64,000 nt of DNA. Origin: Methylomicrobium sp. wino1 (lineage in GTDB: Bacteria; Pseudomonadota; Gammaproteobacteria; Methylococcales; Methylomonadaceae). The notes below the pieces were generated by a model that did no database searches, was not told the DNA's origin, and worked only from the letters and a program-made list of their open reading frames with translations. Shown piece after piece: positions 41,338-52,895 of the stretch; position 1 is the stretch's first letter; the number at the start of each line of letters is the position of its first letter. The DNA lies in NCBI RefSeq assembly GCF_003932755.1, contig NZ_CP024202.1, positions 124,001 through 188,000 of the forward strand, written 5' to 3'. The position numbers were made by a program, and so were the translations under genes.

Positions 41338-42510
41338 TTATTCAACGCCGGCGGCATGCGTCAATTCCGCAACATTTTGTTTAGTGAAAAAACCATCAAA
41401 ATCGCCAAATCGCTGCACATATTCAATGATTAACGACGAATGCTCCGAAGCACTTGAAAATATCTGCTTAATACCTTCTTCTTTCGAACCGATAACATCC
41501 AACAAAAACTTTTTTCCCTGACGAGAAATCTCACTCACCACGTAGTCGATATTTTCCATGCCGTTATATTCGCCGTCATTAACACCGATCGCTAAATGAT
41601 GCAGGCGAGGCCCGTAGTTACGGACGAAGGTTTCAGTCGGCGAAGGTAACTTTTCCAAGTGATTAACAAAATACGGCGTGTTGTTAGCCGTAAACACTTT
41701 TGCAGGACTATTGATCTCATCCGCAAAATGCGCGCTTTTAGTCACATTGGTTGAAGAATTTTGGTCTTTGATATCGTATGAACCCCAATAAAAATAACTC
41801 GACAGCGATAGCCATTCGAGAATTGCGGTTTCGCGATTCTGGCAATAAATACGTGTTGCCAAGTGATCAATGGGATTCAATAACTTGTCGATACCGAGTT
41901 CTTCCTGCAGTTCTTTGGCTTGCCGATAAGCAGTTTATACATCGTCTCGAATCTGGGAAAGTCCCAATGAATACACCCTGATCTGGTTTTCCGGCCGCTC
42001 CATATAAGCGACAATATTATGGCTATAGGGTGAAGGCTTACTGATCGCCAAATTACCCGGCAGCTCCAATCGACGAATCTCATCTTGCGAAAAAAAGCGA
42101 AATTCACGCTCTTGTTGCAAACGTGTCACTTCGCTCATGTTTTCCACTCGAAGAATTTCACCCATATAACGACTGTTCGGCTTACTTGCCCCAATCGGAT
42201 AGACTTCATTCAAGCTTCGAAAAATACCCATGGTCGACGGGTCTTTAACTTCTCTAATCAGCAGGTCGGGCGAATTCATATCGATACGCAAAATATGCGT
42301 CCAATGGGATTCGCTTTCCAGCGTCACGAGATAGTGATAAGGCGTCATTAAGCAAAGTTCGCCGACATAGCGAATAGAGTGGACAGGATCAACGGTAATC
42401 ATTAGCGCGTCGATCTACCCTATCATGTCGGTCAAAAGCTCGCGCAGGTAATGTTCGAAAAAATCGGAATTCTCTTTGTCGCCATGCCGTGGGAAAGAAA
42501 GTGATTTCAT
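41338..42510 (-). pseudogene. VOC-superfamily (4-hydroxyphenylpyruvate-dioxygenase-like) gene with two in-frame stop codons
   Basis: One uninterrupted frame of 391 codons from ATG 42510 (MKSLSFPRHGDKENSDFFEHYLRELL) to a stop at 41338, broken only by TAG at 42417-42415 and TAA at 41937-41935; no frameshift. The C-terminal half keeps likely metal ligands of an HPPD-type extradiol/VOC dioxygenase: His in NPIDHLATRI, His in RLHHLAIGV and Glu in SLIIEYVQRFG. HPPDs are of similar size. So it was lost very recently, or the stops are decoded. Substrate unknown. Confidence 0.75.
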
Positions 42511-42683: not shown

Positions 42684-42943
42684 AGGATTTGGTCATAAAT
42701 AACTTCCCTATTTTTCATGCAAGGTAAGCAGGTTCGGTAACTCGATTGTCAGGTGTCGGCGGCAAGGAAAGCCGCCGCCAAGCCTACATGGACGTATTCA
42801 CCCAGCACCTAAATTCCATAGCCTTTTGGCTATGGTAACTGTCTTGCATAATTTAGGTGCTGGGTTCACGGCGTCCTGTCAAGCGAGTTACCGAACCTGC
42901 TACAAAACCCATAGCTCCAGAAAGTTATTTTTCAAGAAATCCT
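42684..42943. mobile_element. Element B copy 1 (best-preserved)
   Basis: 260 bp from AGGATTTGGTCATAAATAAC to the inverted end AAGTTATTTTTCAAGAAATCC, with inner inverted repeats GCAGGTTCGGTAACTCG / CGAGTTACCGAACCTGC and the core stem around CCATAGCCTTTTGGCTATGG. No ORF. A repeat E copy follows at 42959-42992. Confidence 0.8.
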
Positions 42944-42958
42944 TAAAAGACTTTTCCG

Positions 42959-43009: not shown

Positions 43010-44434
43010 CTAAGAAACGTTCACTTTATGTTTATTCCATAAATGCCGGAATAACTCGGCTAAACAAAGAATGATCAACCCCGTAACTATCCCGACCAAA
43101 CCTTCGTAAGCTTTCTCGTGCCAATCCAGATAACGCCATAATATGGCGGCCGCCAAGCCGCTCGCGACTGCAGCAAGACTCGCGAATTGAGTGGGCCGCA
43201 TTCCCACGCATAACACCAACAGCAAAGGCGCAAAGGCGCTTGCCAATCCGGACCATGCCATGATTACCAAGCTGAACACACTATGATTATTTGCTAAGGC
43301 ACCGAGTAAAGCCAAGAATGTCACGACAATGGTTACCCCTTTGATCAAATACTGGTTTTCGATTTGATGCGGCAAGATATCATGAGTCAACGCCGCCGAA
43401 CAGCTTAACACCACCGAATCGGCAGTGGACATAGTGGCTGCAAATAAGCCCGCTAAAATCAAACCGACCAGGGCTGGAGACAACAACTCCATAGCCATCG
43501 TCGGCAACGCCAACTCGGCATCGAAAGCCTCCGTATCGACGAGATAAATGCGGGAAAGTAGCCCTACGCCGGTGGCCGCCAAGTAAAACGCAATATACCA
43601 AAGGTAATACCACAAACGTGCTTTGTTCATACTGGCGGTATCGTCAAGCGTCATGAAGCGCACCATGATATGAGGCTGACCGATGACCGACAATCCGGCA
43701 AAAAGCCAACTGATTGCGAATAATAAACCGCCGGCAATACCTGGCAAGGCCAAAGACTTGGGGAACCAGTCTAAAAAACCGTCAATCGCTTGCATTTGCA
43801 TTAGGGTCGATTCGATCCCACCCATCGCCTGAGTGGCTGTCATTAATAACACACTCATTGCAACGATCATCACTATCGATTGCGCAGCATCCGTCCAGAT
43901 AGAAGCCCGAATACCGCCCGCGAAACAATACAAGGTAACTAATATGCTACCCATAACCGCCCCTGCCCATGACGGCCATCCGAAAAGCACATGCAATGCC
44001 TTGCTACCGGCGACCAGTTGCGCGCTGGCGTAAGCCAATAGAAAAACTAACGAAATCACACCGATAACCCGTTGCAGTGCCGGCTGATTGCCCCCTGCGC
44101 TCCAGACGCTCAACACACCGGCGTAACTGACTTCACCGGTGGTTGTGGCCGCTACTTTGAGTCTTTTGTGCACCAATAGAGATGCTAAAAAATCCCCGGC
44201 AATCCACCCTATCATCAACCAAATGGCAGCGAGTCCGGTGACATAGGTATAACCGATAACGCCGATGAACATATAGCCACTGTTATTCGTAGCCACCGCC
44301 GATAAACCAACCAGCCAAGGTTTGACATTGCCGCTAGCCAAGTAATAATCTTGCTTGGTGCCACGGCTTTGCCAATAGGACGCCAAGCCAATCAGCGTAA
44401 ACAGCAGTAAAAAAAAACTAAACGAGAGAACCAT
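43010..44434 (-). CDS. Sodium:solute symporter (SSS/PutP-like)
   Basis: 474 residues, almost all membrane (about 13 segments), with the SSS pattern: TM1 then LASGNVKPWLVGLSAVATNNSGYMFIGVIGY, GGIRASIWTDAAQSIVM (the conserved DxxQ signature region), and SWLFAGLSVIGQPHIMVRFM. Closest in style to proline/PutP-type carriers. The organism makes ectoine and the gene lies beside ectD and the TPR gene, so compatible-solute uptake is a reasonable guess, but element A and 430 nt separate them. Substrate not determinable. Confidence 0.85.
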   Translation of the reverse strand: MVLSFSFFLLLFTLIGLASYWQSRGTKQDYYLASGNVKPWLVGLSAVATNNSGYMFIGVIGYTYVTGLAAIWLMIGWIAGDFLASLLVHKRLKVAATTTGEVSYAGVLSVWSAGGNQPALQRVIGVISLVFLLAYASAQLVAGSKALHVLFGWPSWAGAVMGSILVTLYCFAGGIRASIWTDAAQSIVMIVAMSVLLMTATQAMGGIESTLMQMQAIDGFLDWFPKSLALPGIAGGLLFAISWLFAGLSVIGQPHIMVRFMTLDDTASMNKARLWYYLWYIAFYLAATGVGLLSRIYLVDTEAFDAELALPTMAMELLSPALVGLILAGLFAATMSTADSVVLSCSAALTHDILPHQIENQYLIKGVTIVVTFLALLGALANNHSVFSLVIMAWSGLASAFAPLLLVLCVGMRPTQFASLAAVASGLAAAILWRYLDWHEKAYEGLVGIVTGLIILCLAELFRHLWNKHKVNVS

Positions 44435-44864: not shown

Positions 44865-45755
44865 TTAGTGAGTGTTATCCTCGCGAGGCAACAGCTCTAT
44901 AAACGGCGCAAAGTCTTTTAATGCTTGCAGCGCAGGGTCATCGGCAAACTTATCGCGATAATCCTCGGTGCGCTCCAGCGCCTCGGATAAACAGTTAACG
45001 GCCTCTTCATATTGATTCAATGCGGTATACGCACAAGCCAATTGGTAAAAAGCATGGCCGTTTTCAGGGTCGATTTTCAACGCTTGCTGGCATAAATTGA
45101 CGGCCCATTGGGGCTCGCCCATATCGAGCACTGCATCGGCCTTATAAGTCAATGCTTCGCAATCCTCGGGACGCAATTTTAAAATTTGATCGTAAATGGC
45201 AATTTTATTGGCCAAGCTGCTTGCTTGCCCTGCCCTGAGCCACAGTGATTGCACATCTTGCGTCCGCTCGATATCCTCGCCGATTTTCTCAATCAATTGC
45301 GCTTCTTTGTTGAGCTGTTGCTCAACAATTGCCAAACGCTCTTCATATTCATGGACCAGTTTCGATACTTTCTTATCCGCCATGGACTGTACACGCTCTT
45401 TGATATCTCTGAGCGAGGTCCAACCCAACAGCACCAAAATAGTACTGGCACCGGCAATCAAGTAGAAAAAATAAGTAACGGTGTTAGTGGCGTAAGTGAC
45501 GCCTCTATCGACCGAGCTGAGCTCTCTATCCACAATTTGCTGGATCAGCTCATTCCTCTGCGCCGCCATATCCATACGCAACTGCTTGAGTTCATCCAGC
45601 ATATAGCGTTCGATGAACGGACTATATAAGGGCTTATCCAAAGACTCAATCGCCTCTAAGCGTTCTTGTTCTTGAATCTCCAACTCATCGTCGACGGCCT
45701 CGCCCAACACGGAACAAGGCGCCAGCACGATCAACACCATTAACATTCTAAGCAT
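44865..45755 (-). CDS. TPR membrane protein translationally coupled to ectD
   Basis: 296 residues from ATG 45755, which lies inside the last codons of ectD (tATGCTTAG; ectD's stop TAG at 45748). Earlier in-frame codons overlap ectD and are not conserved. Layout: signal-like MLRMLMVLIVLAPCSVLGEA, about 90 residues that include LDKPLYSPFIERYMLDELKQLR, one TM (TVTYFFYLIAGASTILVLLGW, about residues 96-116), a coiled coil (YEERLAIVEQQLNKEAQL), then three TPR-like units (SLANKIAIYDQILKLRPED, PQWAVNLCQQALKIDPENGH, YEEAVNCLSEALER). A shrunken paralogue starts inside ask. Function unknown; association with hydroxyectoine synthesis is inferred from coupling. Confidence 0.85.
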   Translation of the reverse strand: MLRMLMVLIVLAPCSVLGEAVDDELEIQEQERLEAIESLDKPLYSPFIERYMLDELKQLRMDMAAQRNELIQQIVDRELSSVDRGVTYATNTVTYFFYLIAGASTILVLLGWTSLRDIKERVQSMADKKVSKLVHEYEERLAIVEQQLNKEAQLIEKIGEDIERTQDVQSLWLRAGQASSLANKIAIYDQILKLRPEDCEALTYKADAVLDMGEPQWAVNLCQQALKIDPENGHAFYQLACAYTALNQYEEAVNCLSEALERTEDYRDKFADDPALQALKDFAPFIELLPREDNTH

Positions 45756-46707
45756 AAGTTGATTGATCGGCAGCAGCGATAAAAGGCCGCGGCTCGATAC
45801 CACGTATAGCCTTGCGACTACAAAGATATTCGGGACGAGGCGATAAACCGCAAAACGGCCATGTGACTTGATTACTGATCGCGTTATAGACGAAAAAGAG
45901 ATTAGAGCGATGCCATGGAGTGATATTACTATTCGAACCATGCATGACATTACTGTCGAAAATTAAGACACTGCCGGGATTTCCAGTAGCCGATACGACG
46001 CCGCCATCGGCAACTAAGCTAGCCAAGCATTCATCGCTGGGTATGCCGTACTCCTGCTTTTTCAACGAGACCGAATAATGATTCTCCGGCGTTTCCTCTT
46101 CGCAAACGACAAATTTTTTATGCGATCCGGGAATCAACATTAAAGGTCCGTTATGCTGGTCGTTTTCGGTAAGAATAATGGACATGCTGAGCGCACGCAT
46201 TCTGGGCATGCCGTCTTCTACATGCCAAGTTTCAAAGTCCGAATGCCAGTAAAATTCCTTGCCGCGAAAACCCGGCTTATAGTTTAAGCGCGACTGATGA
46301 ATGTAAACCTGGTCGTTCAAAAGATGTTGAGCCAGTCCCGCTAACCGATTATCGGCAGCTAACCTTTTAAAAACCGGGCTGACTTCATGAATTTTAAATA
46401 GTGAACGGATTTCGTCGCTGGATAATTCAGTTATTGCTTCCGCTGAGGCTTTTATCTCTTTATCGTCATTCAAACGATTGAGTTCTTGCTTGAAACAATC
46501 GACTTCCCGCTCATTAAAAACATTATTAATAACAAGAAAACCCTGTTTTTCATAACGTGCTTGCAAGTCCTCGGCAATGAGACTCGGGTTAGCGGTTTGC
46601 GTATAAACCACAGGGTCTACGCGTTGAATTATTTTCGGTTTATCACCGTTTCGAGATTGATATAAATCTTCGCTTTGTTCGAACTGTGCGGCATTCTCGG
46701 TAATCAT
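45748..46707 (-). CDS. ectD: Ectoine hydroxylase
   Basis: Fe(II)/2-oxoglutarate dioxygenase that converts ectoine to 5-hydroxyectoine. 319 residues (typical about 300). The EctD signature FYWHSDFETWHVEDGMPRM is present, with iron ligands His155, Asp157 and His256 (FDSNVMHGSN) and the 2OG arginine in TPWHRSNLFFVYN. It is 188 nt downstream of a decayed ectC and carries the TPR gene on its 3' end. It is not in the ectABC-ask operon itself, so may have its own promoter in 46708-46895, or be part of a lost second ect operon. Confidence 0.95.
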   Translation of the reverse strand: MITENAAQFEQSEDLYQSRNGDKPKIIQRVDPVVYTQTANPSLIAEDLQARYEKQGFLVINNVFNEREVDCFKQELNRLNDDKEIKASAEAITELSSDEIRSLFKIHEVSPVFKRLAADNRLAGLAQHLLNDQVYIHQSRLNYKPGFRGKEFYWHSDFETWHVEDGMPRMRALSMSIILTENDQHNGPLMLIPGSHKKFVVCEEETPENHYSVSLKKQEYGIPSDECLASLVADGGVVSATGNPGSVLIFDSNVMHGSNSNITPWHRSNLFFVYNAISNQVTWPFCGLSPRPEYLCSRKAIRGIEPRPFIAAADQSTYA

Positions 46708-46895
46708 TGAACATTTAACCCATATTGATTAAAGACTTCGCGACAACAGATAGGCCCCTGATCATCGGCCATTCCCAACTTACGCAGGGCTTACCCGTAT
46801 TTATTGAAAAATAGACGGTTAAGTCATTCATTGCTCGACTGAATGCCTTACCATGAACGACCTCACCTTGGACGAAAATTGACTTGCGACTCGCC

Positions 46896-47300
46896 TTAAT
46901 CCGCTACCACTTCAGCTGTCAACTCGTAATCGCCCTAAGCGTTATATACCTCCTTGTCGTTCAGTAGAAGATTGAAGTCGAAAGCCAATTTCATTTCTAT
47001 GAAGGCGCGTAAGATGTGTTTGTCATGTCGGTCGAGAAGATAAAGTGTTCTCGGACGAATCGGATAACCTTTACCATTATCAAAGAACCTGTACTGTACT
47101 CTCCCGACATGCAGTACACCGATTCCAAATGATTTTGATAATGCATTTGAAAACTCACGCCTTCGTATTTGGTCGTGGTGTGAAAGAAGAACCCATATTG
47201 TCATCTTTTAATAACAAGCGAGTAATCTACCAGTTAGTATCCGGAAAAAAAATAAGGCGTTCGGTTTTATTGGCTTCTTCAGATCATCTAACTATATCAT
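46896..47300 (-). pseudogene. ectC: Decayed second ectC (L-ectoine synthase)
   Basis: Exactly 405 nt, the same length as the intact ectC at 49323-49727. Minus-strand reading begins ATG ATA TAG (MI*LDDLKK...), shifts frame more than once ([12 protein letters not shown], then [14 protein letters not shown]), resumes [27 protein letters not shown] and ends KEVYNA*GDYELTAEVVAD*. Compare intact [42 protein letters not shown] and [11 protein letters not shown]. At least two stops and compensating indels make it non-functional. It lies directly upstream of ectD. Confidence 0.85.
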
Positions 47301-47335
47301 ATTAAAACATTGTAATACCAAGGGGTCCACCCAAG

Positions 47336-47501
47336 CAGCAATTCTCAGTTTGAGCATTTATTGCCTTATTTAGGGTGAGAAGCATGCCTGTCGAGGAACG
47401 CAGTGAACCCATCCATGGAGGCTTGGCGGCAGTCTGATCGCCATGGATGTCGGCAAGCACACCCCACACGCCCTTTTTGATCCACAAAGTGGGAATTGCT
47501 G
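47336..47501. mobile_element. Element C copy 2
   Basis: 166 bp with ends CAGCAATTCTCA and GGGAATTGCTG, an inner GGTGAGAAGCATGCCTGTCGAGGA like copy 1's GGTGAGAAGTGTGC. It separates the two ectoine modules (psi-ectC on one side, psi-TPR on the other). Confidence 0.6.
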
Positions 47502-47619
47502 AAGACATTATCTTTTTCACGCTATCATTAAATTCCTCCCCTACTTTCTCTGGCACACGACTATCAAAGCGATTTTTTTATAAACCGTACGCCGCACTTC
47601 TTCAGCTTGAGCCGATGTA

Positions 47620-47835
47620 TCATTTAACCCAATTGAAGAAGGGGTTCAACAACTCCGAACCCTTGGTGTTATCCAGCACATAGCGCTCAATAAACAACGA
47701 ATAAATCGGCTCTTGCAGCGCTTCGATTGTACTTCGAACTGGCCTGCTGCCAATTCAGACTACGCAATAGCGGTTTCAGCAACCAGCGGGAACGGGCTGT
47801 GTCAGCAGCATCAGTACAATCAGGACGCGAGGCAT
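47620..47835 (-). pseudogene. Remnant of a TPR gene coupled to ask
   Basis: ATG 47835 lies inside ask (ATATGCCTCGCGTCCTGA) and reads MPRVLIVLMLLTQPVPAGC*, matching the intact paralogue's LRMLMVLIVLAPCSVLGEA. After stops and a shift it continues IEALQEPIYSLFIERYVLDN, compared with LEAIESLDKPLYSPFIERYMLDE. The rest is lost and replaced by a small hairpin repeat ending WVK*. So the same coupling (ectoine gene followed by overlapping TPR gene) existed here too. Confidence 0.75.
47637..47664. repeat. Small REP-like hairpin with loop TTCAACAACTC (copy 1)
   Basis: AAGGGGTTCAACAACTC followed by CGAACCCTT: stem AAGGG(G)TTC/GAACCCTT. The loop sequence recurs at 52873-52895 in another stem, a sign of structural rather than sequence conservation of the arms. 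Here it cuts off the psi-TPR. Confidence 0.5.
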
Positions 47836-49262
47836 ATTGCAATGCCGTGATCATGGACCTCCACCAGATGGCTGTGCAAACTTTTTATCGCATCAGTATA
47901 GGTATCTTCATCAATCACAAACTGCATATCGACTTGACGCATTGACTGGTGCATAGCCAGCACACTGATCTGTTTCTCTGCAAGTGCCGCGACAGTTTTG
48001 GCCAGAATGCCCGGGATTTTCATATCACTGCCAATGGCGGAAACAATCGAAACTTTTTGCTGATTGATTTCGGCATCCGGATAGATCTCTTGCAAGGCAT
48101 CGCGAATGCGGCGGATTTTTTTCAGACTGGCAGATAAATAATGGGTAATGGTATTGGCATTAATGTCTTTAGAAACAATATGCGCTCTGAAGCGGTGAAT
48201 CAGCGCCAGGATTTCCCGGTCGTAATTGTGAATCTCGCCAGCCATGTTTTGATCAAATACTTCGAAAGCATAGACACCATTGCACCCGGCAATAATCTCC
48301 ACGCAAGGATTACTGCTGACATAGTCGCCGGTGATCAGTGTCCCGGCATGATCCGGCTCAAAGGTGTTTCTGACGCGGAGCGCTATCTCATTCTGACGCA
48401 AGCCTTTTGCTGCCTTGGGATGAATCGCCTCCATGCCCAGGTTCGCAAGTTGGTCGGCCACATCGTAATTGGTGCGGCCAATCGGTACGGCCTTGTCTTC
48501 ACCTACCAGACGTGGATCAGCGCTGCTGAGATGAAATTCCTTATGAATGATAGCTTCATCTGCCTCGGTCAGCACCGCAATCCGGCTGAAGGTCATTTCA
48601 CTATACCCCCGGTCAAACGTTGACATCAGCCCGTCAATGCTGTGCGCATAGCCCGTGGCGATTGGTAGTTGCCGGCTCAGATCAATCTCAGCAAAGGCCT
48701 TTTTAATGCGCTCATCGAGCGTCATGTGTTTATCTGTCTGCCAACCGGTCAGATCCACAAAGACTGCGTTAACACCGTCTTGCTGCAGCAACTGGACAGT
48801 GTTCCACGCGCTGTGCGCCTCACCGATACTGGCCAGCATTTCCCGAACGGTAGAAAGATGTGCATCCAGTGAAAAATGACCGTGCTGACAAAGACGCTGC
48901 AAATCTGCCAGACAGCGCTCTGTGTCATCAAGCCGTTCGCCAATAAACGCGTCGGCTTTTTTGATGGCTTCAGCAGTATCAAAAATGTTGGCATTAATCG
49001 CAAACATTTCCTGCTTAAGTGTTACCAACGAAGCCTGCCAACCGTCATCGTTTAGACTGTTGGCAAACTGACCATAAATTCCGGCATGACCGTTTTTTTT
49101 GTGCTCTAGCAACATATCGGTGATGCCACCGTAGGCGGAGACCACAAAAATACGCTGATACAGATCCTGACGATGGACCGGTTTGAGAATGATATTGTCG
49201 CGCACTGCAACATAATCGCTCATGGATGTGCCGCCGATTTTTTCAACGGTGTGAAACGTCAT
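47820..49262 (-). CDS. ask: Ectoine-operon aspartate kinase
   Basis: Phosphorylates aspartate to supply aspartate semialdehyde for ectoine synthesis; specialised Ask_Ect form. 480 residues from ATG 49262 (MTFHTVEKIGGTSM), preceded by GAGAGG; the longer frame to 49313 lacks conservation. N-terminal kinase motif VEKIGGTSM and FDRGYSEMTFSRIA; C-terminal ACT domains (KVSIVSAIGSDMKIPGILAKTVAALAEKQISVLAMHQS). Codon choice (many CTG, CAG) differs from neighbours such as tex. 60 nt after ectC. Confidence 0.95.
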   Translation of the reverse strand: MTFHTVEKIGGTSMSDYVAVRDNIILKPVHRQDLYQRIFVVSAYGGITDMLLEHKKNGHAGIYGQFANSLNDDGWQASLVTLKQEMFAINANIFDTAEAIKKADAFIGERLDDTERCLADLQRLCQHGHFSLDAHLSTVREMLASIGEAHSAWNTVQLLQQDGVNAVFVDLTGWQTDKHMTLDERIKKAFAEIDLSRQLPIATGYAHSIDGLMSTFDRGYSEMTFSRIAVLTEADEAIIHKEFHLSSADPRLVGEDKAVPIGRTNYDVADQLANLGMEAIHPKAAKGLRQNEIALRVRNTFEPDHAGTLITGDYVSSNPCVEIIAGCNGVYAFEVFDQNMAGEIHNYDREILALIHRFRAHIVSKDINANTITHYLSASLKKIRRIRDALQEIYPDAEINQQKVSIVSAIGSDMKIPGILAKTVAALAEKQISVLAMHQSMRQVDMQFVIDEDTYTDAIKSLHSHLVEVHDHGIAICLAS

Positions 49263-49322
49263 AACGTCCTCTCTTACTTCGTGGATGCCGAAGGGCTTCA
49301 ACCGCCCTGCCATGATTGAAAA

Positions 49323-49727
49323 TTAGTCACTGACTGTTTCGGCTTCCAGTTCATAGGCACCTTCTGCGTTGTGTACTTCCTTACCGTTCAGAGGAGGGTT
49401 AAAGACGCAAGCCAATTGCAGCTCCTTGAAAGCACGCAGGATATGCCGATCGTGCTGATCCAGGTTATAGAGTGTACCTGGGGTGATAGGGTACTTTTTG
49501 CCATCGTCCAGAGTTTCCACTTCGCCTTCACCACTGATGCAATACACCGACTCAAGGTGATTCTGGTAATGCATGCGAAAATCGGCACCGGCGAAAATGG
49601 TGGTGATATGAAAGGAATAGCCCATACCGTCATCCTTCAGCAGCATGCGGGTGCTTTCCCAGTTGCCGTCAGGTGAAACGATGCGTCTGTTGGTCTGCTC
49701 TGCGTCTTGTAACTGTCTTACGATCAT
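49323..49727 (-). CDS. ectC: L-ectoine synthase
   Basis: Cupin enzyme that cyclises N-gamma-acetyl-diaminobutyrate to ectoine. 134 residues. Start [16 protein letters not shown], the metal-site region [22 protein letters not shown] and [18 protein letters not shown] are intact. It lies downstream of the element B insertion, 311 nt from ectB, so its expression may depend on read-through across that element or on a new promoter. Confidence 0.97.
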
Positions 49728-49779
49728 GTTAGTTCTCTTCAGTAGATTCTCGAATAGGCTGGTTGGCTCAACAGGCTTT

Positions 49780-50039
49780 AGGATTTCGTGAAAAATAACT
49801 TCCTGGAGCTATGAGTTTTGTAGCGGGTTCAGTAACTCGCTAGACAGGACGCCGTGAACCCAGCACCTAAATTATGCAAGACAGTTACCATAGCCAAAAG
49901 GCTATGGAATTTAGGTGCTGGGTGAATACGTCCGTGTAGTCTTGACGGCGGCTTTCCCTGCCGCCGACACCTGTCAATCGAGTTACCGAACCTGCTTACC
50001 GTGCATTAAAAATAGGGAAGTTATTTATGACCGAATCCT
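49780..50039. mobile_element. Element B copy 2, inserted between ectB and ectC
   Basis: 260 bp, inverted relative to copy 1: left end AGGATTTCGTGAAAAATAAC, right end GTTATTTATGACCGAATCCT, with the same core stem CCCAGCACCTAAATT/AATTTAGGTGCTGGG and inner CGGTAACTCG-type arms. Its right end abuts the ectB stop codon (50039-50041). Confidence 0.85.
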
Positions 50040-51370
50040 TAGTGCCCCGCTTTGCTGACCTCTTTACTGACCGAGTAGTCGCCTTCAAAAAAGTCTTTGC
50101 CTTCTGGGATTGTGTCTGCTTTATCACAGACCTCTTTAATGGCTTGTTCCAGAATGTCGATGCCATTTTCCAGCTCCGCATCAGTAATGATCAGCGGGCA
50201 CAGGAACTTCACAACATGATCGTCTGCACCACTGGTTTCAATGATCAGACCTTTCTGAAAACATCTGCGGGTTATCTGGCCGGCCAAATCACCGCTGACA
50301 CAGTTAATGCCTCGGAACATACCACGTCCATGCGAGTTGAAATTGCCCTCGCCATACTTGGCGACAATGACATTTACACGATCGGCAATGTACCGACCTT
50401 TGCGCTGGATATCTTTGGCAAAGCTGTCGTCCTTCCAGAAGTGATCAATAGCCGCCTTGGCGGTGACAAAGGCATGATTATTGCCTCGGAAGGTGCCATT
50501 GTGTTCACCCGGCGACCATTCATCGATTTCGGGTTTCATCAAAACAATGGCTAACGGCAAACCATAACCGCTCAGCGATTTCGACAAAGTCACAATATCA
50601 GGATAAATTCCGGCTTCTTCAAAGCTGAAGAAAGTGCCGGTGCGGCCACAACCGGCCTGGATGTCATCAATAATCAGCAACACATCATGTCGTTTGCAGA
50701 TTTCCGACAGGCTTTTTAACCAAGTCATTGACGCGGCGTTGATACCCCCTTCGCCCTGTACCGTTTCAACAATGACGGCTGCCGGCTTGTCGACACCGCT
50801 GCTGGAATCCGACAGCATTTTGTCGAGCAAATTGGTGGTATCAAAATCATCACCCAGATAGCCGTCATAGGGAATACGGGTTGAGCCATGCAAGGCAATG
50901 CCGGCACCGCCACGATGAGTGGAGTTGCCGGTAACCGACAATGATCCCAGCGTCTGGCCATGCCAACCATTAGTAAACGAAATAATGTTTTCACGACCGG
51001 TTTTTTTGCGGGCAATCTTCAGTGCCGCTTCAACCGCGTTGGTGCCGGTGGGGCCGGTAAACATCACAATATAGTCCAAGTTCCGCGGCTTTAAAATGTA
51101 CTCATTAAAGCTTTCCAGAAACTCACCCTTGGCACGGGTATGCAAGTCCAGACCCTGCGTGATGCCATCATTCTGGATGTACTCAAGCAGCTTTTCCTTA
51201 AATACCGGGTGATTGTGGCCGTAATTTAGGGAACCTGCACCAGCGAGAAAATCCAGATATTCGTTGCCTTCATGGTCATAGATTTTTGCGCCTTGGGCAC
51301 GATCAAACACGCGTGGAAAAGCGCGGGCATACGAACGGACTTCTGATTCAATTTCTTCAAAGATCTTCAT
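50039..51370 (-). CDS. ectB: L-2,4-diaminobutyrate transaminase
   Basis: PLP class III aminotransferase converting aspartate semialdehyde to diaminobutyrate with glutamate. 443 residues. IIDDIQAGCGRTG (Asp235-236 region) and the PLP lysine Lys264 in TLSKSLSGYGLP are present, as are MFTGPTGTNAVEAALK and the C-terminal SGADDHVVKFLCPL. The stop TAA falls exactly at the edge of the inserted element B, so the C-terminus (EVSKAGH) is intact or nearly so. 41 nt after ectA. Confidence 0.97.
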   Translation of the reverse strand: MKIFEEIESEVRSYARAFPRVFDRAQGAKIYDHEGNEYLDFLAGAGSLNYGHNHPVFKEKLLEYIQNDGITQGLDLHTRAKGEFLESFNEYILKPRNLDYIVMFTGPTGTNAVEAALKIARKKTGRENIISFTNGWHGQTLGSLSVTGNSTHRGGAGIALHGSTRIPYDGYLGDDFDTTNLLDKMLSDSSSGVDKPAAVIVETVQGEGGINAASMTWLKSLSEICKRHDVLLIIDDIQAGCGRTGTFFSFEEAGIYPDIVTLSKSLSGYGLPLAIVLMKPEIDEWSPGEHNGTFRGNNHAFVTAKAAIDHFWKDDSFAKDIQRKGRYIADRVNVIVAKYGEGNFNSHGRGMFRGINCVSGDLAGQITRRCFQKGLIIETSGADDHVVKFLCPLIITDAELENGIDILEQAIKEVCDKADTIPEGKDFFEGDYSVSKEVSKAGH

Positions 51371-51411: not shown

Positions 51412-51930
51412 CTAAGCCTGAACCGCTTTGAACGGACCGACCTTCACCAGCATTTCGGTTTCATGTTGATCTGCAAAATGGCGAGTCTTGTCAAACATCA
51501 CAGCACTGCCAATTTGGGTGTCCAGTTTTTTTGCCAGCCCCTCAAATAGAGCCCATGAGGCCTGATTATTCGGGGTGATGGTCGTCTCGATACGGTTAAT
51601 ATCCTGATTGGCCGGTCGAGCCAGAATGGCTAAGAGCATCCGCGTGGCAAGCCCTTGACCACGGGCTTTTTCGCCGACAGCCACCTGCCAGACAAACAAT
51701 GTATCCGGATGTTGCGGAATACGGTAACCCGAGACAAAACCAACCAACTCATCGCCAATACTGGCCGCCACCGCCGTTTCAGAAAAATGGCTGCTCTGCA
51801 ACAGATTGCAGTACATCGAATTAGGATCCAAGGGCGGACACTCGCTAATCAGCCTGTGTACCTGTGCTCCGACCTCGGCAGTAGGCTGACTAAGAGTAAT
51901 GGTCGGTGAAGCAGTTTTAGCAGATAACAT
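51412..51930 (-). CDS. ectA: L-2,4-diaminobutyrate N-gamma-acetyltransferase
   Basis: GNAT enzyme acetylating diaminobutyrate. 172 residues from ATG 51930 (MLSAKTASPTITL); the TTG 33 nt upstream is unlikely. Acetyl-CoA loop VAVGEKARGQGLATRML and LDPNSMYCNLLQSSHF, typical of EctA. First gene of the operon, with the EctR operator 124 nt upstream. Confidence 0.96.
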   Translation of the reverse strand: MLSAKTASPTITLSQPTAEVGAQVHRLISECPPLDPNSMYCNLLQSSHFSETAVAASIGDELVGFVSGYRIPQHPDTLFVWQVAVGEKARGQGLATRMLLAILARPANQDINRIETTITPNNQASWALFEGLAKKLDTQIGSAVMFDKTRHFADQHETEMLVKVGPFKAVQA

Positions 51931-52053
51931 ATAAACAACTCTATTATTTAGCTTTCTGTACAATACATTCGGTTTTGATTGGATAAGCCGGGCTTAAATT
52001 TTGATTTTTATTAGAGTTCAGCACAAATATTCTGGCTTCATTGAAAAACATAA

Positions 52054-52181: not shown

Positions 52182-52724
52182 ATGATGCAAAACCCACAAC
52201 CACACGCCCCCCATTCGCTGGATACGCTCGACTTAAATCCGGTTGAAAAAGAACATTTGCTGAATCAAATTGAAGAAGTACTGGTCGCATTACGCAGAGT
52301 CATACGTGCCACAGACTTACACTCAAAATATCTGGCAAAAACTACCAGCCTGACCGCACCGCAGATTCTTTTATTGCAGACACTGCGCGCCAAAGGTCAA
52401 CTGACCATTGGGGAGCTAGCTCAGGACATGAGTCTCAGCCAGGCAACTGTGACAACAATTCTGGATCGCCTGGAAAAACGTCAACTGGTGTTCCGGCAGC
52501 GCTCCCAGACGGACAAGCGAAAAGTCCATGCCTACATGACCGAGGCGGCCACGGAAATGCTAATAAATGCGCCTATCCCTTTGCAGGATCGCTTTACACG
52601 GGAATTCAGTAAACTACAGGAATGGGAACAGTTGATGATTATTGCATCACTCCAGCGTGTTGCTCAGATGATGGACGCGCAGGATATCCCTGTCACTAAA
52701 GAAGCATTTGATTTTCCAGTTTAA
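52182..52724 (+). CDS. ectR: MarR-family regulator of the ectoine operon
   Basis: 180 residues, MarR winged helix (KGQLTIGELAQDMSLSQATVTTILDRLEKRQLVFRQRSQTDKRKVHAYMTEA, residues about 85-135 in pieces) with an N-terminal helical extension (NPVEKEHLLNQIEEVLVALRRVIRATDLHSKYL). Divergent from ectA. EctR1 is a salt-responsive repressor of ectABC-ask in methanotrophs; position and operator support the same role. Confidence 0.92.
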   Translation: MMQNPQPHAPHSLDTLDLNPVEKEHLLNQIEEVLVALRRVIRATDLHSKYLAKTTSLTAPQILLLQTLRAKGQLTIGELAQDMSLSQATVTTILDRLEKRQLVFRQRSQTDKRKVHAYMTEAATEMLINAPIPLQDRFTREFSKLQEWEQLMIIASLQRVAQMMDAQDIPVTKEAFDFPV

Positions 52725-52869
52725 GCTCTGATGATTCGGCTCAGCTGCAACCAGTCATTGACCAAGTGCGCCGCCGGGGTCACAGAGGTCCTCACTAGAC
52801 ACATCCCATACCTTTTATTCTTAGACGGCTTTTCAATCAAAAGGGAGCAATGCATTGTTTAGCCTAATT

Positions 52870-52895
52870 GGACCAGGGCTTCAACAACTCTGCCC
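52870..52895. repeat. Small REP-like hairpin with loop TTCAACAACTC (copy 2)
   Basis: GGGCTTCAACAACTCTGCCC: stem GGGC/GCCC with the loop shared with 47637. It sits 3' of the minus-strand flippase gene. Confidence 0.5.

Follow-up and report, generated by a model that had tools for sequence, protein, structure and literature searches.

A decaying ectC beside live ectoine genes in Methylomicrobium sp. wino1 points to displacement of a resident cluster by a Methylophaga-like cassette

The ectoine locus of Methylomicrobium sp. wino1 (genome G000; G001 to G005 are relatives in its genus) raises the question of how parts of two ectoine gene sets came to lie side by side in one genome. In the stretch of DNA analysed here (64,000 nucleotides of contig NZ_CP024202.1; hereafter the window), a dead ectC stands before a live ectD and a live gene for a TPR-repeat protein, and a live ectC-ask pair is followed by the beginning of a dead TPR gene. 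An earlier note on this DNA read the arrangement as an ect cluster, duplicated or twice acquired, whose two modules had decayed reciprocally into a single functional set. The features of the locus, from the regulator to the symporter, are as follows.

52182..52724, plus strand: ectR, MarR-type regulator, divergent from ectA; incoming cassette
51412..51963, minus strand: ectA, live; incoming cassette; TIGR02406 above cut-off
50039..51370, minus strand: ectB, live; incoming cassette; TIGR02407 above cut-off
49777..50039, no strand assigned: 263-nt dispersed repeat with terminal inverted repeats, in the ectB/ectC gap
49323..49727, minus strand: ectC, live; incoming cassette; Pfam Ectoine_synth 200.7 bits, NF009806 above cut-off
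47820..49313, minus strand: ask, ectoine-type aspartate kinase, live; incoming cassette; NF006614 above cut-off
47662..47835, minus strand: TPR gene scrap (5' part), overlaps ask at its 3' end; tblastx similarity to TPR genes
47322..47661, no strand assigned: junction filler of about 340 nt, pieces of dispersed repeats
46896..47300, minus strand: resident ectC, pseudogene; similarity to G004 spans 46894-47321
46708..46799, minus strand: conserved leader 5' of ectD, probable promoter or 5' UTR
45748..46707, minus strand: ectD, ectoine hydroxylase, live, resident; TIGR02408 363 bits, above cut-off
44865..45755, minus strand: TPR-repeat protein gene, live, resident; TPR family matches
43010..44434, minus strand: sodium:solute symporter (SSS) gene of the resident cluster; Pfam SSF 174.7 bits

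EctA, EctB, EctC, the ectoine-type Ask and EctD all score above the curated NCBIfam cut-offs, and the true start of ask probably lies near 49277. Within the same window, 41338-42402 holds two adjacent minus-strand reading frames of no clear family; a reading of these as one split gene found no support, their two Pfam matches being below cut-off (E about 0.1) and to different families.

Positions 46896-47300 of the minus strand do contain a dead ectC, which adjoins an intact ectD and then an intact TPR gene, as the earlier note stated; tblastn, Pfam, indels and stops agree on this. The live EctC matches the region in three pieces in tblastn (E 7e-28 for two linked pieces and 3e-16 for the remaining one), and the open piece 46938-47204 by itself is recognized by Pfam Ectoine_synth (E 8e-10; 39.5 bits, cut-off 27) and by the NCBIfam ectoine synthase model at E 5e-9, though with 36 bits where the curated cut-off is 128. 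Compared with the intact ectC of G004, the dead gene has four indels, two of them insertions (2 and 1 bases) and two deletions (1 and 2 bases), and its codons 5, 24 and 122 of 135 are premature stops. Its length of 405 nt is indeed that of the live ectC; because the indels of +3 and -3 cancel, however, this equality is a coincidence. Differences from G004 are flattened over the codon positions of the dead gene (18/134, 23/135 and 35/133), and between the live ectC and that of G004 they number 23, 13 and 82 of 135.

The live genes from ectR to ask have close relatives in Methylophaga. Among the matches listed, the nearest Methylophaga proteins are 75-90% identical in EctA, EctB, EctC, Ask and EctR; for Methylophaga L065 versus G004, identities are 90% versus 73% in EctB, 90% versus 80% in the live EctC, 75% versus 56% in EctA and 80% versus 75% in EctR (99% to G003 and G005), and Ask is 81% identical to Methylophaga, among the best 80 of at least 520 relatives. 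In the trees, the live genes of G000, G002, G003 and G005 form a 10-row clade with six Methylophaga rows, with SH-aLRT values of 100 for EctB, 99 for Ask, and 96 each for EctA and EctR; the grouping with L065/L066 receives 99 for EctB and EctA, 88 for Ask and 85 for EctR. The live ectC groups with L065/L066 in the DNA tree (88/83) and, as a protein, is one of 14 rows, with Methylophaga and Marinomonas, in a set (98/95) that is not resolved further. These trees took loci L057-L117 and L171-L182 and the window, with rows covering less than 75% of the query dropped, and left out 27 of the 80 loci (L118-L144; 25 of them Marinobacter), the 80 loci being the best 80 of at least 520 relatives; those of EctB, EctR, Ask, EctA, EctD, TPR and SSS were quick searches assessed by SH-aLRT only. 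The phylogeny of the replaced genes is at odds with that of the species as given by rpoB and gyrA, EctB, EctA, Ask and EctR being placed inside Methylophaga. On these sequence comparisons, a Methylophaga lineage is indicated as the source of the cassette, which we therefore call Methylophaga-like; its direct donor is not among the sequences compared.

The surroundings of the cassette are of a different origin. In G004 the locus reads ectR / ectABC, a gap of 742 nt, TPR and SSS, and the products of the SSS, TPR and 52908 genes, which flank the cluster on both sides, are 90-96% identical between G000 and G004, against the 56-80% given above for the ectoine proteins and EctR. The TPR gene is 93% identical in G004 and the SSS gene 96-98% in G002-G005; trees of both keep the genus together, though in another order than rpoB. 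The two species carry their ectoine genes at the same locus. The remains of a displaced gene are also present, namely the dead ectC of G004 type. EctD has no match in the genome of G004, in which ectD is reduced to two scraps (nt 111-143, then nt 915-960) that adjoin the TPR gene and are joined by an internal deletion. These scraps indicate that the resident cluster had ectD beside TPR without ask. The stretch of G004 with these scraps (L060:5274-6038) also shows, in the gap towards ectC, short tandem repeats and terminal pieces of the 263-nt repeat family.

Three other histories have to be set against displacement. Short indels, of 1-2 bases, are a common fault of some long-read sequencing, and the dead ectC does contain indels of this size; that faulty sequencing or assembly alone makes an intact gene look broken is nevertheless scarcely conceivable, because the four indels come together with premature stops at three codons and with many substitutions, spread over all codon positions, and because the same place shows a decay series in other genomes, G000 retaining 405 nt of the resident ectC, G002 about 106 nt and G005 48 nt, with none found in G003. 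That one ect cluster was duplicated locally in tandem, and that the copies then decayed reciprocally, might be suggested by the presence of the same gene families, adjacent and on the same strand. Such a history would require the two ectC copies to be mutual nearest relatives, and on DNA they are not. With the intact ectC of G004, which stands at the same locus, the dead copy shares 79-80% of its bases, and with the live one 61-61.5%; with the latter it gives no blastn match at the default word size, and with words of 7 a match of 65% over 300 nt (E 2e-13), a weak similarity. Over 403 shared columns the dead gene agrees with G004 alone in 92 and with the live gene alone in 20, a difference that stays positive in 10000 of 10000 resamples. 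In a DNA tree of 18 chosen ectC sequences it joins G004 at 100/99, and the approximately unbiased (AU) test rejects a clade of dead and live ectC (p-AU 1.4e-5), as well as one of dead, live and four Methylophaga sequences (p-AU 0.0019). The tree of 69 EctC proteins likewise unites the dead copy with G004 (100/97), although the AU test on protein, taken alone, does not reject dead and live EctC as one clade (p 0.179). With the live genes grouping with Methylophaga, a local duplication is rejected by the DNA identities and the DNA tree and is very improbable overall; of the two origins once proposed, a double acquisition fits.

A less improbable history, though still an unlikely one, is that the ancestor of the whole genus carried both modules next to each other, after which G004 lost the Methylophaga-type module and the other species lost the resident ectABC. 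The SSS and TPR trees could be taken in its favor, since they put G004 among the other species of the genus, with G002 as its neighbor in SSS (SH-aLRT 93), and the G004 locus has evidently been unstable, having lost most of its ectD. By contrast, a tree of rpoB and gyrA unites G000, G002, G003 and G005 at 98/98 and excludes G004 and G001 (the latter placed by gyrA alone), so that G004 lies outside the cassette clade; moreover, the 12-kb locus of G004 contains no Ask match, and its genome no match to the ectD leader. The conflict between the SSS and TPR trees and those of rpoB and gyrA means that the flanks may have recombined, which makes the timing less sure. The incomplete genome of G001, in which neither EctC nor a close EctB was found, cannot place the event, its contig stopping just before ectD. 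The earlier note looked to relatives for a strain with both modules intact; no such genome was seen among 237 of the family, 21 of which have EctC matches, more than one being found only in G000 and G002, where the extra matches are remnants. Instead, one congener (G004) has the resident ectABC alone and three have the cassette with partial or no remains of the resident ectC. The reciprocal loss that the note proposed is indeed real, but it is seen on comparing species: ectABC survived and ectD was lost in G004, with the opposite outcome in the line of the window.

Displacement in situ, in which a Methylophaga-like cassette replaced the resident ectR-ectA-ectB and left a chimeric pathway, is therefore very probably the correct account. 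A feasible course of events begins with an ancestor of the genus that would have held ectR / ectA-ectB-ectC-ectD-TPR-SSS and would already have lost a dedicated ask. A cassette of ectR / ectA-ectB-ectC-ask, with the start of a TPR gene, would then have entered the same place in the line leading to G000, G002, G003 and G005, a single entry in the ancestor of these four being the simplest history, and would have displaced the resident ectR, ectA and ectB, of which no traces beyond the live copies were detected in the 64-kb window with the G004 proteins (E up to 1). The resident ectC, left without its promoter and partner genes and made redundant, would have decayed at a species-specific pace, and the resident ectD-TPR-SSS would have been kept because the cassette brought no ectD and just a scrap of TPR. 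Two modules of separate history have thus come to make one working set, each supplying what the other lacks, as the earlier note supposed; its picture of two symmetrical modules does not hold, one being the resident cluster and the other the Methylophaga-like cassette. At present, foreign EctB, EctA, EctC and Ask would make ectoine under a foreign EctR, and the resident EctD is predicted to convert part of it to hydroxyectoine in this strain.

The resident ectD is a maintained gene. It is intact in the five genomes of the genus that have it, with dN/dS values of 0.07-0.18 (10 pairs), and is under purifying selection that is looser than that on most of the cassette, the five genes of which give 0.006-0.144; the corresponding values for the TPR gene are 0.04-0.11 (10 pairs). 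Directly 5' of ectD, the leader of G000 shares 96% of 95 positions, the start codon among them, with that of G001 and likewise with that of G003; the DNA further 5' decays. Of 21 genomes searched, the leader is present in five, which are those of the genus with ectD, and gave no match in the other 16, G004 included. This segment of about 92 nt is probably a promoter or 5' UTR, and ectD would probably be expressed from it or else by read-through from ask. Rfam returned no match at the leader, its two miRNA-type matches lying elsewhere and far below the gathering scores. The promoter and terminator scan was given no weight because its counts are near expectation (11 promoter-like sites against 11.6 expected; 7 terminator-like sites against 8.4).

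Other clusters suggest where ectD belongs. In two genomes of the same family (G140 and G144), ectABC-ectD-ask-TPR stand together with ectR, and in G021 a scrap of ask lies between ectD and TPR; this arrangement and the ask scrap point to ectD as part of the older cluster order. In Methylophaga, EctD found no match at any of the six loci (L065-L070).

Xenologous gene displacement in situ, the replacement of operon genes via horizontal transfer, is known as a kind of event and is usually inferred from tree conflict alone. Like known instances, the present one shows a homologous set from a distant lineage in the place of the resident genes, with the flanks retained; unlike them, it retains the decaying footprint of the resident ectC and stages of decay in sister species. 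Because the displaced copy is still present, its decay can be followed in the sisters and G004 has kept the original, the order of events is readable from the sequences, which makes the locus a clear case of textbook quality. Reshetnikov and co-workers reportedly proposed in 2011 that ect genes were transferred horizontally among methylotrophs and described two cluster types, with and without ask; their account is said to include neither a pseudogene footprint nor a chimera with a resident ectD. Among the literature titles listed there was no paper on a dead ectC, and it may be reported elsewhere.

The same gene order as in the window is reported, in excerpts of a review, for M. alcaliphilum 20Z, with ectR upstream of ectABC-ask-ectD (PMC5924519); excerpts of others indicate that EctR represses ectABC-ask in this strain (PMC3979721) and that ectD is active, since a derivative of 20Z contains hydroxyectoine at about 4-8% of ectoine and none after deletion of ectD (PMC8759281). 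Another group, by an excerpt of its paper, failed to prove the function of the hydroxylase gene (PMC7192451). Neither a dead ectC nor separate origins for ectABC-ask and ectD are mentioned in these excerpts on 20Z. Displacement would explain, in a way open to test, why the production of hydroxyectoine by M. alcaliphilum 20Z is low and disputed, in that the hydroxylase gene would stem from the displaced cluster. It is tempting to speculate further that the chimera is held by selection, the cassette having given a dedicated aspartokinase and its own repressor and the resident ectD having moved onto its own conserved leader and thereby become independent of EctR. This proposal is tentative and, in our estimate, rather doubtful; if true, an EctR-independent ectD would explain both the few percent of hydroxyectoine in 20Z and the failure of one group to find any.

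The junctions of the cassette bear traces of repeats. Between the modules the earlier note had placed an inverted-repeat element; short pieces of dispersed repeats are all that is recognized there (47322-47661), and the full 263-nt repeat lies between ectB and ectC instead. A 41-nt direct repeat occurs near both cassette ends in G000 (47615-47655 and 52850-52890, 78% alike); among the loci of relatives compared it was found as a single copy (79%), after ask in G005, and for this reason it is not claimed as the mechanism of entry. The dead TPR gene that the note saw after ectC-ask is a genuine remnant with two in-frame stops, but at 174 nt (47662-47835) it covers just the start of a gene that measures about 890 nt in full. 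Its best match is Methylophaga L069 (73%), with the resident TPR gene at 64% and several others between, and it is too short for its source to be assigned by sequence alone; we take it as the tail of the cassette on the basis of the adjacency of ask and TPR in five of the six Methylophaga loci (L065 and L067-L070). The 263-nt repeat has a further copy at 42684-42946 and at least 70 matches in its own genome among the matches listed (40 of 384 candidates scored); the ectB/ectC gap of G005 contains a copy that is 98% identical, and the corresponding gaps of G002 and G003 are short and gave no match. More widely, a TPR protein accompanies ectoine clusters: among 47 ectC-linked loci in which ask is followed by at least 1 kb of sequence, a TPR gene follows ask directly in 23, an SSS gene lies within 2.5 kb in 20 and an EctD match is present in 10.
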